64,000 bases of DNA from Qipengyuania algicida (GTDB lineage Bacteria; Pseudomonadota; Alphaproteobacteria; Sphingomonadales; Sphingomonadaceae): NCBI RefSeq assembly GCF_009828025.1, contig NZ_WTYA01000004.1, forward strand, positions 1 to 64,000, written 5' to 3'. How positions within the stretch are numbered: the stretch's first letter is position 1; each line of letters begins with the position of its first letter. A program made the translations under genes and the position numbers. Positions 36,941 through 50,367 of this stretch are shown piece after piece. The notes beneath the pieces were generated by a model, which saw only the letters and a list, made by a program, of their open reading frames with translations, ran no database searches and had not been told where the DNA came from.

Positions 36941-36979
36941 TCAAAAACAAAAACGCCGGCTCCCACAGGAACCGGCGTT
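36941..36979 (-). terminator. Rho-independent terminator after rplY
   Basis: On the minus strand AACGCCGGTTCC pairs with GGAGCCGGCGTT (one G-T pair) around a TGTG loop, followed by TTTGTTTTT. It lies 24 bp after the rplY stop and should end most rplY transcription. Confidence 0.92.
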
Positions 36980-37002
36980 CATGTTCTTCGGGATCGAAGC
37001 GA

Positions 37003-37668
37003 TCAGTCGTCGGACTGCTCGTCCTCGCCTTCAACCGTCTCGGCATCCTGCTCGGTGACTTCGGTTTCCTCCGCACCCGCTTCGCCTTCGCTCTTCTTGA
37101 GCGCGGACGGAGCGACGAAGGTTGCGATGGTGAAGTCGCGATCGGTGATCGCGCTGGCCGAACCCTCCGGCAGCGTCAATTCGCTGATGTGGATCGAATC
37201 GCCAACTTCCTTGCCGGTGACGTCGATCTCGATCTCGCCGGGGATCTTGTCGGCTTCGCAGATGAGGTCCAGCTCGTGACGAACCACGTTCAGCACGCCG
37301 CCCTTCTTGAGGCCCGGGCTCGCTTCTTCATTGATGAAGACGACGGGGACCATCACTTCGACCTTCGCGTCCTTGCCCAGACGCAGGAAGTCGGCATGCT
37401 CGGGACGGTCGGTGACCGGGTCGAGCGCGACATCCTTGGGCAGGGTGCGGATCTTCTTGCCGCCCAGCTCGAGCGTGACGATGGAATTCATAAGGTGACC
37501 GGTGTCGAGCAGGCGCGTCAGCTCCTTCGCCTCGACATGGATCATGGTGGGTTCTTCCTTGCCGCCATAGATGACGGCGGGAACACGGCCTTCGCGGCGA
37601 AGATGACGGGAGGCTCCCTTGCCAGCCCGATCGCGCGCCTCAGCCGGCAGGGTCAGAGCGTCGCTCAT
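37003..37668 (-). CDS. rplY: 50S ribosomal protein L25/general stress protein Ctc
   Basis: 221 residues from ATG 37668; the frame is open further upstream without similarity. The N-terminal L25 domain ([25 protein letters not shown]) binds 5S rRNA, and the C-terminal TL5/Ctc beta domain follows from about 100. A highly acidic tail of about 30 residues ends the chain, as in many alphaproteobacterial Ctc proteins. It is followed by a strong terminator. Confidence 0.97.
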
Positions 37669-45778: not shown

Positions 45779-46537
45779 TCATCGCCAGCCGGTTAGCGTG
45801 AGGATTTCAAAACGCTCGGCGATCCTGCCTTCGTCATCGGCCTGCGCGGAAAACGCAGCTTCGGCCCGTTTCAGCGCTGCCTTGCTCAGCGCGGGGCCGC
45901 CGCGCGCGAGTACGGCGGTCAGCGCCTGATCGCGCAAATCACTCACGAGTTTCCCCAGATCGGGATAGCGGACGGTCACCCCGTGCTCGTCAACGACCTG
46001 ACGGGAGAAGCCGGCGCGTTCAAGCAGGCCTGTCGCGGATCGGCTTTCCACCTGCGGGTGCAGGCGCGGGGCGGGGCGGTCGCCATCCGCCGCCAGCATC
46101 GCGCTGCGCAGCGCAGGCAAGGACCCGCCACCGACCATCATGGCGATCATCATCCCGCCGGGTGCCAGCGCGTTGCGCAAATGGATCAGCGCGCCGGGCA
46201 GGTCATTGACGCTCCCGAGGCGATCAAGACTGATGGCAAGGTCGAATGGCCCGCCATCGAGAGGCAGCTCTTCATCGACACTTGCAAGCGGCGGCGCGAC
46301 CACATCGGCGCCTGTGGAATTGAAATATCGCTCCAGCGTCCCGGACAAATCGCCCGCCAGCCAGACGCGCTTCGGCTCGAGACGGACGAAATCGATGCGT
46401 TCGATCGCGTCCTCCGCCATAACCCGGCTCAACCAGTTTGCCGGATCGCTGACCCGTGCCTGGCGATAGCTTGCCCGCTGGTCGCGCAGCCGGCGCCGTT
46501 GGCGCGAAAATATCTCGGGCACCTGATGATCGGTCAT
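45779..46537 (-). CDS. SAM-dependent methyltransferase, BioC/NDUFAF5-like
   Basis: 252 residues from ATG 46537 (MTDHQVPEIFSRQRRRLRDQ); the frame is open upstream but antisense to comF. The Rossmann core shows VWLAGDLSGTLERYF (SAM-binding strand, divergent), FDLAISLDRLGSVNDLPGAL and LRNALAPGGMMIAMMVGGGS. Alphaproteobacterial members of this group are related to mitochondrial NDUFAF5 (complex I assembly) and to BioC. The family's glycine-rich motif is weak, so the substrate is uncertain. Divergent from comF across 50 bp. Confidence 0.85.
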   Translation of the reverse strand: MTDHQVPEIFSRQRRRLRDQRASYRQARVSDPANWLSRVMAEDAIERIDFVRLEPKRVWLAGDLSGTLERYFNSTGADVVAPPLASVDEELPLDGGPFDLAISLDRLGSVNDLPGALIHLRNALAPGGMMIAMMVGGGSLPALRSAMLAADGDRPAPRLHPQVESRSATGLLERAGFSRQVVDEHGVTVRYPDLGKLVSDLRDQALTAVLARGGPALSKAALKRAEAAFSAQADDEGRIAERFEILTLTGWR

Positions 46538-46587
46538 GGCGCTCCCGTGACGTTCCGCCGGGCAGTTGGCAAGGGTCGAGGCCGTCG

Positions 46588-47406
46588 ATGGTGACAGGCA
46601 CGCGCTTTCTCGCTTCGTCACTCGCGCCGCTGATCGACTTCGTGTACCCGCCGCGCTGCCCTGCTTGCGAAAAGGCGATCGGACAGCAATCGGGCCTGTG
46701 TCTGGAATGCTGGTATACGCTGGCCATTCCAACCGACCCGAGTTGCGTGCTTTGCCAACGACCTTTTGGAGAGCATGGTCCGGGTGCCGGAGCGGTTTGT
46801 GCGCCGTGCATGGCCTCTCCCCCGGTTCATGACGGGATCGCCGCAGGCACGCTATACAATGTGACTTCGCGCAAGCTGGTGCTGGCCTTCAAGCACGGTG
46901 GACGCATAGCCCTGGCGACGATTTTGGCGCGCCTGATCGCCGCGAGGCTTCCCTCGTGCAGCGAGGAACGGTTGATTGTCCCGGTTCCCCTCCATCGTTG
47001 GCGCCTGTGGAAGCGTGGCTTCAATCAGGCCGCGCTGCTTGGTCGCGAACTTGAGAGCCTTGGCAAAGGGCAGCTTTATCCCGACGCCCTGATCCGTCGC
47101 AAAGCAACCCCGGCGCTCGGCGGCCTGAGCGCGCGTGCGCGACGACGGACGGTGAGCGGTGCATTCATCGCTGCGGCTGCGGCAAGGCAGCGAATCGAAG
47201 GCCGCGATATCTTGCTGGTCGACGACGTTCTTACCAGCGGTGCCACCAGAACGGCTTGTGTCAAAGCGCTCAAACAGGCCGGAGCGCGTAGCGTCATGAT
47301 TGCGTGTTTTGCGCGCGTCCTCGACGAGGCGCGCGCCCATGGCATTCAAGAGGAAAGCCAACAAACGAAACGCCCGGAGCCTCCCTTGGCTCCGGGCGCC
47401 GCGTGA
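46588..47406 (+). CDS. comF: ComF family phosphoribosyltransferase-like protein
   Basis: 272 residues from ATG 46588. Two Cys pairs (YPPRCPACEK with CLECW, and CVLCQRPFG with CAPCM) form the ComF zinc region, and the C-terminal type I PRTase fold has ILLVDDVLTSGAT and RWRLWKRGFNQAALLG. ComF is needed for handling transforming DNA in competent species; in other bacteria the role is unclear. The last codons run through a strong inverted repeat (47372-47397) that acts as a terminator on the opposite strand, so the C-terminal tail after about residue 255 is probably not conserved. Confidence 0.92.
   Translation: MVTGTRFLASSLAPLIDFVYPPRCPACEKAIGQQSGLCLECWYTLAIPTDPSCVLCQRPFGEHGPGAGAVCAPCMASPPVHDGIAAGTLYNVTSRKLVLAFKHGGRIALATILARLIAARLPSCSEERLIVPVPLHRWRLWKRGFNQAALLGRELESLGKGQLYPDALIRRKATPALGGLSARARRRTVSGAFIAAAAARQRIEGRDILLVDDVLTSGATRTACVKALKQAGARSVMIACFARVLDEARAHGIQEESQQTKRPEPPLAPGAA
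47361..47397 (-). terminator. strong Rho-independent terminator on the minus strand
   Basis: Minus-strand GCCCGGAGCC-AAGGGA-GGCTCCGGGC is a perfect 10-bp stem followed by GTTTCGTTTGTT. In the plus direction the stem is preceded by A-rich and not followed by T-rich sequence, so it terminates leftward transcription only. No protein gene on that strand explains it; see the ncRNA call at 47361-47582. Confidence 0.85.
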
Positions 47407-47582
47407 CGAAATCGTCGGGATCTCCGTTTCCGGTTCGGCGGTTCCCCCACGGACCACCTCGATCCAACCCTCATCGTCGCCGACCTTTCGCTCACCCCCT
47501 GAGCAGTCCGGTCGGACTTTGCCCCCTGAACCTGGCGTTCTGTCGACGCTCTGTTGCAGCGGAACGAGCTTCTGAACTCGTT
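47361..47582 (-). ncRNA. candidate small RNA between hisI and comF
   Basis: On the minus strand TTGAGG (47616-47611) and AATATA (47593-47588), 17 nt apart, form a sigma70-like promoter with an expected start near 47581. The transcript would open with the hairpin AACGAG-TTCAGAAG-CTCGTT and close with the terminator at 47372-47397, giving about 220 nt. Its interior is rich in G runs (for example CAGGGGGTGAGCG) and inverted repeats. No convincing short ORF was found. I could not match it to a known RNA family. Confidence 0.5.
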
Positions 47583-47694
47583 GGATGTATATTCGCGTAA
47601 AATGTCTTGACCTCAAACAGCCTTGTGAGTTTGCAATCCATTTTCCGGCGCAATGTGGTTATCGTGCAACAAGAATTCATATGACAATCGGGAC

Positions 47695-48054
47695 ATGATC
47701 GAAGTGACAGAGCAGCGTTTTACACCCAAGTTCGATCGCAATGGTTTGCTTTCTGCGGTAGTGGTCGATGCGGTTAGCAACGAAGTGCTGATGGTAGCGT
47801 TCATGGACGCCGAAGCGCTCGATGCGACGCGCGAAACCGGTTTTGCGCATTTCCACTCTCGCTCTCGCGGGCGACTCTGGAAGAAGGGTGAAACCTCGGG
47901 CAATGTCTTGCAGGTCGAAAACATTCTCGTCGATTGCGATCAGGATGCACTGGTCCTGAAATGCATCCCGGCGGGGCCGGTTTGCCATACCGGCGAGCGG
48001 GTCTGCTTTTTCAGAAAGCTCGACGGTGATGCTCTCGTTTCCGTCAATACTTGA
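47695..48054 (+). CDS. hisI: phosphoribosyl-AMP cyclohydrolase
   Basis: 119 residues from ATG 47695. The HisI motifs are present: [50 protein letters not shown] and the zinc-binding Cys stretch [15 protein letters not shown]. It opens the adenine ring of PR-AMP in the third step of histidine synthesis. It is a stand-alone HisI without the HisE domain and is not next to other his genes here. Confidence 0.97.
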
Positions 48055-48085
48055 CGTTTACGTAACTCAGGGCTACTAACCGGTG

Positions 48086-48541
48086 ATGGCTAGTGCTTCC
48101 AATTCGAGACCGGAAAGAGATCCCCACGGCCAATCGCGTGCGTTGCTCGATCGGCCGGACAAGCTGTCGCGCGAACAATTTTCCATCTCGGACCTCACCA
48201 GCGAGTTCGGGTGCACCGCGCGCGCCTTGCGGTTTTACGAGGACGAGGGGCTGATCGCGCCGTCGCGGGTCGGCTTGAACCGGATCTATTCCAAGCGAGA
48301 CCGCGCCCGCCTCGCGTGGATCATGCGCGCGAAGAACGTCGGTTTTTCGCTGACCGAAATACGCGAGATGATCGACCTCTACGATCTCGACGATGGCCGG
48401 GCGGAGCAGCGTCGCGTCACGATCGAGAAATGCCGCGCCCATGTCTCCAAACTGAAGCACCAGCGCGCCGATATCGACAGTTCGATCAAGGAGCTGACCG
48501 AGTTCATCGCCCACGTCGAAAGCGTGACTTCGGACAGCTAA
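48086..48541 (+). CDS. MerR-family transcriptional regulator
   Basis: 151 residues. The MerR helix-turn-helix begins near residue 33 (FSISDLTSEFGCTARALRFYEDEGLI) and ends with RNRIYSKRD-like wing residues; a coiled-coil dimer helix follows (AEQRRVTIEKCRAHVSKLK). The members that resemble it control fatty-acid or leucine breakdown genes. The acyl-CoA dehydrogenase gene starts 20 bp downstream, which supports such a role and suggests autoregulation (inference). Confidence 0.9.
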   Translation: MASASNSRPERDPHGQSRALLDRPDKLSREQFSISDLTSEFGCTARALRFYEDEGLIAPSRVGLNRIYSKRDRARLAWIMRAKNVGFSLTEIREMIDLYDLDDGRAEQRRVTIEKCRAHVSKLKHQRADIDSSIKELTEFIAHVESVTSDS

Positions 48542-48561
48542 TACAGACCAGAGGATATAAA

Positions 48562-50367
48562 ATGCCCAGCTACACCGCTCCCGCGCGTGACACACGCTTC
48601 GTCGTCAACGAAGTGCTCGACGTCGCCAGCTATGGAAACCTGCCCGGTTTCGAAAGCGCCACTCCCGATATCATCGATACGGTGATCGGTGAGGGCGGCA
48701 GGTTCTGCGCCGAAGTTCTGGCGCCGCTCAACCTGTCTGGTGACGAGCAGGGCTGCACGCGTCATGCCGATGGGTCAGTGACGACACCCGATGGCTTCAA
48801 GGACGCCTACAAGCAGTTCTGCGAGGCAGGTTGGGGCACGCTCGCGCAGCCGGAGCAGTTCGGCGGGCAGGGTATGCCGCACGTGCTCGGCTTTGCTCTG
48901 GAGGAATTCATTTCCAGTGCCAATCAGGCTTTCGGCATGTATCCAGGCCTCACCAACGGCGCGGTATCCGCTTTGCTGGCCAAGGGATCGCCAGAGCAGC
49001 AGGAAAAATACCTTCCCAAGATGATCTCCGGTGAATGGTCCGGCACGATGAATTTGACCGAGCCGCAGTGCGGCACCGATCTCGGCCTCATTCGCACCAA
49101 GGCGGAGCCGCAAGCGGATGGCAGCTATGCGATTACCGGCACGAAAATCTTTATTTCGGCGGGTGAGCACGACCTGACCGACAACATCATTCATCTGGTG
49201 CTGGCCAAGCTGCCCGGCGCGCCGGATTCGACCAAGGGTATCTCGCTGTTCGTGGTGCCGAAGTTCCTCGTCAACGACGATGGCTCGGTGGGCGAACGCA
49301 ACGGCGTTTCCTGCGGCTCGATCGAGGAGAAGATGGGCATTCACGCCAACGCCACCTGCGTACTCAACTACGATGAGGCGAAGGGCTGGCTCGTCGGTGA
49401 GGAAAACAAGGGGCTGGCGGCGATGTTCATCATGATGAACGCCGCACGCCTTGGCGTCGGCATTCAGGGATTGAGTCAGGCCGAGGTCGCTTACCAGAAC
49501 GCGGTCGCCTATGCGAAGGATCGTCGGCAGGGCAGGGCATTGACTGGGCCCGCCGATCCGGAAGCCAAGGCCGATCCGATCATCGTCCACCCGGACGTGC
49601 GCCGGATGCTGATGGACGCCAAGGCCTTTACCGAGGGGATGCGTGCATTGTGCCTGTGGGGCGCATTGCTGGTCGACCTAAGCCACAAGGCCTCCACCGA
49701 GGAAGAGCGTGCCGAGGCCGATGCGATGATCGGCCTGCTGACGCCCGTCATCAAGGGGTACGGGACCGACAAGGGCTATGCCGTGGCAACCGATATGCAG
49801 CAGGTGTTCGGCGGGCATGGTTATATTCGCGAGTGGGGCATGGAGCAGTTCGTGCGCGATGCGCGGATTGCGCAGATCTACGAAGGCACCAATGGTGTGC
49901 AGGCGATGGATTTGTGTGGTCGCAAGCTCGCCTACAAAGGCGGCGCGGCAATCCAGGCCTTCTTCAAGATGGTCGGCGATGAATGCTCAGCCGCCAAGTC
50001 GGATGAAACTCTCGCTCCGCTGGCTGAAAAACTCGAGAAGGCGCTTGGTGAGCAACAGGCGGCAACCATGTGGTTCATGCAGAATGCAATGAAAAACCCC
50101 GATGATCTGGGCGCTGGCGCACACGACTACATGCACATCATGGGGATTGTCTCGCTCGGCCTGATGTGGTTGCGCATGGCCAAGGTGGCACAGGCGAAGC
50201 TGGCGTCGGCGCCGGATGACAAGGCGTTCTACGAAACCAAGCTGGCGACGGCGCGGTATTATATCGAGCGGTTTCTGCCAGATGCCGGAGCATTGCGCCG
50301 CAAGCTCGAGGCTGGGAGCGAAGCGGTCATGGCGTTGAACGAAGACGCCTTCGATACGGCTGCATAA
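48562..50367 (+). CDS. acyl-CoA dehydrogenase, long FadE/DmdC-like type
   Basis: 601 residues from ATG 48562 with GAGG upstream. It has the extra N-terminal segment and C-terminal domain of the ~600-residue subgroup. FAD/substrate motifs are GTMNLTEPQCGTDLGLIRTKA, ITGTKIFISAGEHDLTDNI, QQVFGGHGYIREWGMEQFVRDARI, and the IYEGTNGVQAMDLCGRKL stretch of the active site. It oxidises an acyl-CoA to the 2-enoyl-CoA, passing electrons to ETF. The substrate could be a medium/long chain or 3-methylmercaptopropionyl-CoA type; the sequence alone does not decide. Confidence 0.95.
   Translation: MPSYTAPARDTRFVVNEVLDVASYGNLPGFESATPDIIDTVIGEGGRFCAEVLAPLNLSGDEQGCTRHADGSVTTPDGFKDAYKQFCEAGWGTLAQPEQFGGQGMPHVLGFALEEFISSANQAFGMYPGLTNGAVSALLAKGSPEQQEKYLPKMISGEWSGTMNLTEPQCGTDLGLIRTKAEPQADGSYAITGTKIFISAGEHDLTDNIIHLVLAKLPGAPDSTKGISLFVVPKFLVNDDGSVGERNGVSCGSIEEKMGIHANATCVLNYDEAKGWLVGEENKGLAAMFIMMNAARLGVGIQGLSQAEVAYQNAVAYAKDRRQGRALTGPADPEAKADPIIVHPDVRRMLMDAKAFTEGMRALCLWGALLVDLSHKASTEEERAEADAMIGLLTPVIKGYGTDKGYAVATDMQQVFGGHGYIREWGMEQFVRDARIAQIYEGTNGVQAMDLCGRKLAYKGGAAIQAFFKMVGDECSAAKSDETLAPLAEKLEKALGEQQAATMWFMQNAMKNPDDLGAGAHDYMHIMGIVSLGLMWLRMAKVAQAKLASAPDDKAFYETKLATARYYIERFLPDAGALRRKLEAGSEAVMALNEDAFDTAA

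Follow-up and report, generated by a model that had tools for sequence, protein, structure and literature searches.

The window, by which we mean the whole stretch of 64,000 nucleotides that was analysed, very probably contains a genuine noncoding RNA gene on the minus strand between comF and hisI, as judged from its sequence. The unit and its neighbours are as follows.

46591–47406, plus strand: comF, the convergent neighbour, with Pfam matches to a double zinc ribbon and a phosphoribosyltransferase domain (start codon assumed)
47364–47581, minus strand: noncoding RNA gene of about 218 nt, its 5' end placed from the promoter and hairpin positions and its 3' end from the terminator
47369–47400, minus strand: predicted intrinsic terminator of 13 pairs with the tail TTTCGTTTG, from a scan and from covariation
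47564–47581, minus strand: 5' hairpin P1 (ACGAGU/GCUCGU), from the alignment
47588–47616, minus strand: putative promoter read from the sequence, with the −35 hexamer TTGAGG (47616–47611), a 17-nt spacer and the −10 hexamer AATATA (47593–47588)
47653–48054, plus strand: hisI, the divergent neighbour (Pfam PRA-CH)

A sequence-only reading had postulated here a small-RNA transcription unit of about 220 nt, divergent from hisI, and its elements were recovered. The TTGAGG/AATATA promoter with its 17-nt spacing lay on the minus strand opposite to hisI, and the 5' hairpin was located at approximately 47581–47564. The stem with a T-rich tail was present (GCCCGGAGCC/GGCTCCGGGC, tail GTTTCGTTTGTTGG), the scan lengthening it to 13 pairs (47400–47369) rather than the 10 initially described. 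From these positions the predicted transcript is G-rich and measures approximately 218–220 nt. A promoter of its own and an intrinsic terminator, the attributes of a trans-encoded sRNA gene, can thus be read from the sequence. Taken alone, these signals were no better than chance. In the region 46400–48700 the consensus scan returned no strict promoter (0.5 expected), so that the window promoter was not among its results, and the two terminator-like sites compared with 2.3 expected, no more than in shuffled sequences. Folded as a single sequence, the unit had only modest stability (z = −2.4), which 5 of 200 shuffles equalled. Conservation and covariation, described below, raise the unit far above chance. 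In the alignment the −35 region appeared by eye to be kept as TTTGATGAA, and the −10 was poorly conserved.

The same reading had placed the 3' end of the RNA antisense to comF. This is correct in the present genome, where comF stops at 47406, and does not hold across the genus: among 30 same-genus loci, the window's included, the comF stop overran the start of the terminator in 4 and fell short of it in 15, the other 11 being undecided. The antisense arrangement is incidental, and antisense control of comF was rejected on the ground that the overlap is not conserved. A 254-codon open frame also runs antisense to comF on the minus strand (46852–47616) and crosses the RNA; it looks like an accidental high-GC frame. 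A conserved short open reading frame, which the sequence-only reading had named as the finding that would speak against an RNA gene, was looked for and not found. The sole start codon common to 30 of 30 aligned rows (AUGAGGG) opened frames of 5 to 94 codons, and a conserved small ORF was rejected for starts within the aligned RNA. The locus therefore shows a conserved RNA structure without a conserved ORF, as expected of a trans-encoded sRNA.

No Rfam 15 family matched the locus at its gathering score, and a search at E up to 10 returned only four weak matches, all far below their cut-offs. Neither search brought up the suhB/alpha-R8 family (RF00519) at the locus, nor the 6S and SRP models. 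The 6S and SRP RNAs are encoded elsewhere in this genome, and together with the lack of an Rfam match this rules out either identity for the unit. Among the listed matches from the open-access literature, considered by title and the opening of the abstract, none dealt with this locus; an unnamed transcript is possible in the Zymomonas sRNA or Sphingopyxis dRNA-seq work. We regard it as very likely that the unit represents a genuine family of RNA genes with no Rfam 15 match.

Conservation and fold of the RNA

A DNA search of 99 genomes with the interval gave matches in 48 of them (own genome included), all belonging to one genus, and the aligned relatives are Qipengyuania/Erythrobacter. In all 29 relatives' loci that were fetched, the gene order was methyltransferase (minus), comF (plus), RNA (minus), hisI (plus) and merR (plus). 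In G020, a genome of the same genus without a DNA match, the RNA was found by covariance model at 149 bits and in the same place. The structural elements downstream of P1 are listed here.

47522–47533, minus strand: unpaired motif AGGUUCAGGGGG, highly conserved and complementary to the alpha-R8 core
47480–47515, minus strand: hairpin P4, with the G-rich apical loop AGGGGG at 47500–47495 and both-side changes in 11 of 13 pairs
47405–47478, minus strand: three-way junction with the closing stem GACGA/UCGUC, the conserved GAUGAGGG and the stems P6, P7 and P8
47465–47461 with 47422–47418, minus strand: junction stem P6
47458–47437, minus strand: junction stem P7, its loop holding GGGGG
47433–47424, minus strand: junction stem P8, with a GNRA-type loop GAAA

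The order of the fold is P1, P3, the unpaired AGGUUCAGGGGG, P4, the three-way junction (P6, P7, P8) and the terminator. P6 and most of P7 escaped RNAalifold when it was applied to the alignment A1, presumably because of misaligned registers; a covariance model, R1, was therefore built from nine same-register sequences with a hand-drawn structure, the window sequence being excluded. R1 scored the window RNA at 77.3 bits and recovered all 30 same-genus loci, a 31st match being the opposite strand of one of them. In a set of 30 loci fetched with R1 (four of the same genus, two of these repeated from the first 29), the RNA lay between comF and hisI in every case. The alignment of 30 same-genus loci described one RNA, with the stretches GGUUC.GGGG, GAUGAGGG, GGGGG and UCGUCAC..GGCGCCCGG kept. 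The sequence-only reading had suggested related genomes and compensatory base changes as the places to check its proposal. The first check recovered the RNA in synteny at 29/29 and 30/30 loci. A refined model, R2, was made from 48 sequences with the window's among them; it matched the window at 47534–47364 with 113 bits. For the second check, 97.1% of the pair cells held in 48 sequences aligned to R1, and 31 of 48 pairs showed both-side changes. The double-change cells numbered 287 compared with a shuffled mean of 71, none of 500 shuffles being as high, and pairing fell to 35–49% when the partners were slid by one to three columns. This alignment was fitted to the structure, a bias in its favour; both controls were nonetheless far off.

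The support was unevenly distributed along the molecule. P6, P7 and P8 together showed both-side changes in 13 of 13 pairs (48 sequences). In 30 sequences whose alignment was not fitted to it, P1 had 93.9% of its cells paired and both-side changes in 4 of 6 pairs. P3 was weaker, with double changes in 1 of 5 pairs, and for P1 and P3 taken jointly two of five measures did not rise above shuffles (63/500 and 336/500). The closing stem of the junction was near-invariant and received no support from covariation. It could alternatively be drawn as ACGA/UCGU or as GAUGAG/UUCGUC, and covariation cannot choose between these because the stem hardly varies. P8 was missing in L007 and L025, and by reading the P4 arm was lost or minimal in L141 and L142. 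Conservation, synteny, compensatory changes and a conserved upstream element argue, at the level of sequence, for the small-RNA unit originally proposed.

Distribution and a second chromosomal location

The RNA is widespread in the family Sphingomonadaceae, which we take in the sense of GTDB. Of 298 genomes in the family, R1 matched in 112 (43 of 96 genera) and R2 in 167 (60 of 96 genera); these counts include weak matches, and filtering is stricter in searches of more than 40 genomes. Elsewhere in the order the search covered 34 genomes of other families and gave no match at an E-value of 0.1 or better. When a 19-base segment from the 3' end was used for a scan, 80 named loci were listed among at least 118 stretches, and 73 of the 80 matched R2 at E up to 1e-6 (one of them truncated by the end of its contig, and another with a score of only 43 bits). 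The scan also reached the RNA in the cultured strains Qipengyuania aquimaris JCM 12189 (L154) and Erythrobacter sp. SD-21 (L191). The seven listed without an R2 match were labelled bacterium, Planctomycetota (two), Rhizobium, Trinickia, Burkholderia and Nanopelagicales. The RNA is single-copy as a rule. Two copies per genome were considered and rejected for G176 (C9), G479 (C15), G464 (C20) and G469, where the extra R2 matches look like unrelated terminators, a check that covered those four; extra matches also occurred in G146, G024 and G401, as did some opposite-strand matches. Within the window itself a weak R2 match of 24 bits was seen at 36946–37079 on the minus strand, perhaps a terminator with a similar stem.

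Twenty weaker matches from 20 genomes were inspected. Four (50–67 bits) were at comF/hisI, the type A location, and the other 16 (26–43 bits, 15 genera) lay beside lolC, proS or pyrG, the type B location. The inspection also took in eight more loci, six of type A and two of type B. Within the 5 kb read at the lolC/proS/pyrG loci there was no hisI or comF. A hisI match was obtained in 14 of the 15 type B genomes searched; at these 14 hisI loci R2 found no RNA, and comF adjoined hisI in none. Short comF matches occurred approximately 1.1 kb from hisI at L118, L121 and L122. Most type B loci also possessed GGUUC.GGGGAG, the UCGUCACG motif and the terminator; L096, L097 and L099 had neither the upstream element nor the full motif. 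Against Rfam at gathering score, the 16 type B loci yielded only a tRNA. We read types A and B as one gene at two alternative locations, a probable homology judged from the shared parts and modest model scores.

Both types of loci share an element upstream of the RNA.

47654–47671, minus strand: upstream element TGTTGC-N8-CACA (TGTTGCACGATAACCACA), a putative activator site conserved at both locus types

With a spacer of six to eight nucleotides the element was present in 50 of 64 type A loci (same-genus repeats left out) and in 14 of 18 type B loci, compared with 3 of 4100 shuffles. Type B loci were L084–L099, L138 and L140, and most of them carry the same element. It stood 38 nt before the start of the TGAN hexamer in 12 of 14 type B loci, and at a spacing of 28–43 nt in type A. 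With the ATG at 47653, hisI would overlap the element; it could instead start at the in-frame ATG at 47695. In 29 relatives the matched region of HisI started at residue 14 or later in 19 and at residue 12 or earlier in 10. An exact copy of TGTTGCNNNATNNNCACA occurs in the genome once, at the upstream element. A large regulon was considered and rejected, with one exact genomic site and nine one-mismatch sites compared with two in all for a control pattern. A signal would presumably be read through the element.

A candidate partner among the alpha-R8 RNAs

RF00519 matches above the cut-off came from all 18 genomes examined, a set selected for having the RNA. They were of two main kinds, one with the SuhB-like core GGCAUCCUCUCC and the other with the core CCUCCCUGAACC. 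The second kind, with the core CUCCCUGAACC, lay beside the gene for N-formylglutamate amidohydrolase (FGase) in all four loci that were checked, one of them in the window's genome; most species are reported to carry their alpha-R8 there (PMC12559287). The matching core type was recognised in 9 of the 18 genomes, the window's among them. In the other nine all the listed suhB matches were of other kinds, 50 of 51 matches having been read overall. The presumed partner is present in the same genome as the window RNA, where it scores 27 bits compared with the RF00519 gathering score of 41; an annotation based on RF00519 would therefore miss this copy. FGase-linked copies with the core UCCUCCCUGAACC were located at G000:C18:222972-223050 (L304, L324) and at L302, L325 and L326. 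Many genomes carried several SuhB-type sRNAs (L274–L303) with a nearly invariant GGCAUCCUCUCC, and G388 had seven RF00519 matches.

The unpaired motif, AGGUUCAGGGGG or GGUUCGGGGAGG, is complementary over 10–13 nt to CUCCCUGAACCU of the FGase-linked alpha-R8. In an accessibility-weighted search over all positions the motif and the core formed the best predicted duplex in eight of nine genomes, with energies of −9.8 to −14.0 kcal/mol. Out of 100 dinucleotide shuffles made of the partner in each of these eight genomes, 0, 0, 6, 0, 0, 0, 4 and 2 were as good. With the SuhB-type siblings the result was at chance level in nine of nine genomes (13 to 40 of 40 shuffles as good), and they were rejected as partners. 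The exception to the predicted contact was G112, where the motif is changed to AAGGAAAUGGGAGG, the alpha-R8 core being unchanged, and 67 of 100 shuffles were as good. Motifs similar to that of G112, with AAGGA replacing GGUUC, were also seen in three other genera at the type A loci L101, L103 and L134. According to these energy models an accessible segment complementary to the core, as expected of a sponge, is thus predicted better than chance in eight of nine genomes and fails in G112.

At the motif, 10 bp or more of complementarity were found in 66 of 82 loci (44/48, 9/16 and 13/18). The same held for 3 of 976 control windows and, when the region was mononucleotide-shuffled, for 53 of 1640 shuffles. 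This complementarity was missing in 16 of the 82 loci, and an extra base interrupts it in L003, L012, L022 and L037. In single-sequence folds the motif was partly occluded, the eight genomes with the predicted contact needing 4.7–12.1 kcal/mol to open it. Mimicry of Shine-Dalgarno and anti-Shine-Dalgarno sequences can also produce matches between G-rich and C-rich segments. The conserved junction, GAUGAGGG and the P7 loop are left unexplained by alpha-R8 pairing.

Proposed function and comparison with known systems

For this RNA gene, whose conservation, structure, relation to the second locus and specific complementarity were computed, the best explanation appears to be a trans-acting structured sRNA that antagonises alpha-R8 as a sponge, a reading we hold with moderate confidence. 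We propose that transcription of the RNA would start at its own promoter and stop at its own terminator. The unpaired AGGUUCAGGGGG or GGUUCGGGGAGG would then bind, in the cell and perhaps with the help of Hfq, the core UUCCUCCCUGAACC of the FGase-linked alpha-R8, a single-stranded anti-Shine-Dalgarno segment. This pairing would keep alpha-R8 off the mRNAs that it targets, in the way that Caulobacter CrfA acts on SisA-D; the effect could be that of a sponge or one of mutual antagonism.

It is possible, although unlikely, that the trans-acting sRNA pairs by its G-rich unpaired segments mainly with C-rich stretches of mRNAs, the alpha-R8 match being secondary or a mere resemblance of Shine-Dalgarno and anti-Shine-Dalgarno sequences. 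Three or four G-runs are exposed (motif 1, the P4 loop in part of the genus, GAUGAGGG and the P7 loop), only one of which is used by the alpha-R8 contact, and this contact fails in G112. However, the complementarity reaches GAACC/GGUUC, beyond Shine-Dalgarno mimicry, and is specific to one type of alpha-R8.

The near-invariant unpaired nucleotides of the three-way junction, the GNRA-type loop, the conserved structure and the usual single copy would also suit an RNA of the ribonucleoprotein type, in which the junction and the G-loops bind a protein as a scaffold or a protein sponge. We consider this improbable, as there is no candidate protein, the P4 arm looks lost or minimal in L141 and L142, and P8 is missing in L007 and L025. 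Protein sponges of the CsrB/RsmZ type present repeated GGA in hairpin loops. That type was rejected here: the P7 loop lacked GGA in 20 of 24 same-genus rows, the window having GGGGGA there and none in the P4 loop.

That the conserved interval is instead a regulatory or coding piece of a neighbour (a hisI leader, the 3' end of comF or a small ORF) is suggested by the upstream element at the start of hisI and by the overlap of the terminator with comF in this genome. It is very improbable in view of what seems to be the same element and RNA at lolC/proS/pyrG with no hisI or comF within 5 kb, the compensatory changes in the minus-strand fold, the variable comF stop and the lack of a conserved ORF. 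A housekeeping RNA missed by Rfam, such as 6S or SRP, would fit the length and copy number and can be practically dismissed, with 6S and SRP present elsewhere in the genome and no Rfam match at the locus or at the 16 type B loci.

A broader proposal, which we offer tentatively, enlarges the antagonist of alpha-R8 into a family-wide new class of structured alphaproteobacterial RNA acting as a multi-site hub. Its conserved three-way junction and several G-loops might simultaneously hold anti-Shine-Dalgarno sRNAs and perhaps also a protein. The whole unit, promoter and activator site included, might have moved between the two places on the chromosome, and the RNA may be a main switch in the regulation of carbon use in sphingomonads.

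Alpha-R8 sRNAs are reported across the Alphaproteobacteria except the Rickettsiales and bear on carbon metabolism, through MmgR and polyhydroxybutyrate and through SisA in Caulobacter (PMC12559287). The SuhB of Sphingopyxis, which we take to belong to the alpha-R8 family, represses thnR in the catabolite repression of the tetralin genes (PMC6563040); the pathway touched by the window RNA is for this reason probably carbon use. If the proposal is true, an antagonist of alpha-R8 across much of the Sphingomonadaceae would be the missing half of a circuit in pollutant degraders. Since the RNA has no match in Rfam 15 and strong covariation, it can be catalogued and tested at once.

With alpha-R8, mmgR and suhB (RF00519) the window RNA shares the character of an alphaproteobacterial trans-encoded sRNA with an intrinsic terminator. 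The RF00519 sRNA would be its partner and not its relative, having a C-rich core, 77 model positions and a different structure. In CcnA of Caulobacter a short loop pairs by CCCC with GGGG and the targets are the ctrA and gcrA mRNAs (PMC8959179). A CcnA-like mechanism was rejected, as CcnA there bears the CCCC side, the opposite strand of the contact, and the window RNA bears the G-runs. QrrX of Vibrio (PMC12559287) and the sponge of RoxS in Bacillus are likewise cases of antagonism between sRNAs in other organisms and with other partners. The closest parallel would be CrfA of Caulobacter crescentus, which acts as a sponge under carbon starvation: its G/A-rich stem-loop binds the alpha-R8 core (UUUCCUCCCU) of SisA-D and lowers SisA (PMC12559287). 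In both RNAs an accessible segment rich in G and A is complementary to the core of alpha-R8, and the partner sRNAs are of the same family; the window RNA would work like CrfA. As far as the anatomy given for CrfA goes, the two are set apart by the size of the window RNA, approximately 220 nt with the P4 arm and a three-way junction, and by the place of contact, a second stem-loop in CrfA and the unpaired strand before P4 in the window RNA. The latter would also pair with the GAACC that follows the core in FGase-linked alpha-R8. If true, such an antagonist across much of the Sphingomonadaceae would suggest that alpha-R8 sponging is widespread or has evolved repeatedly.
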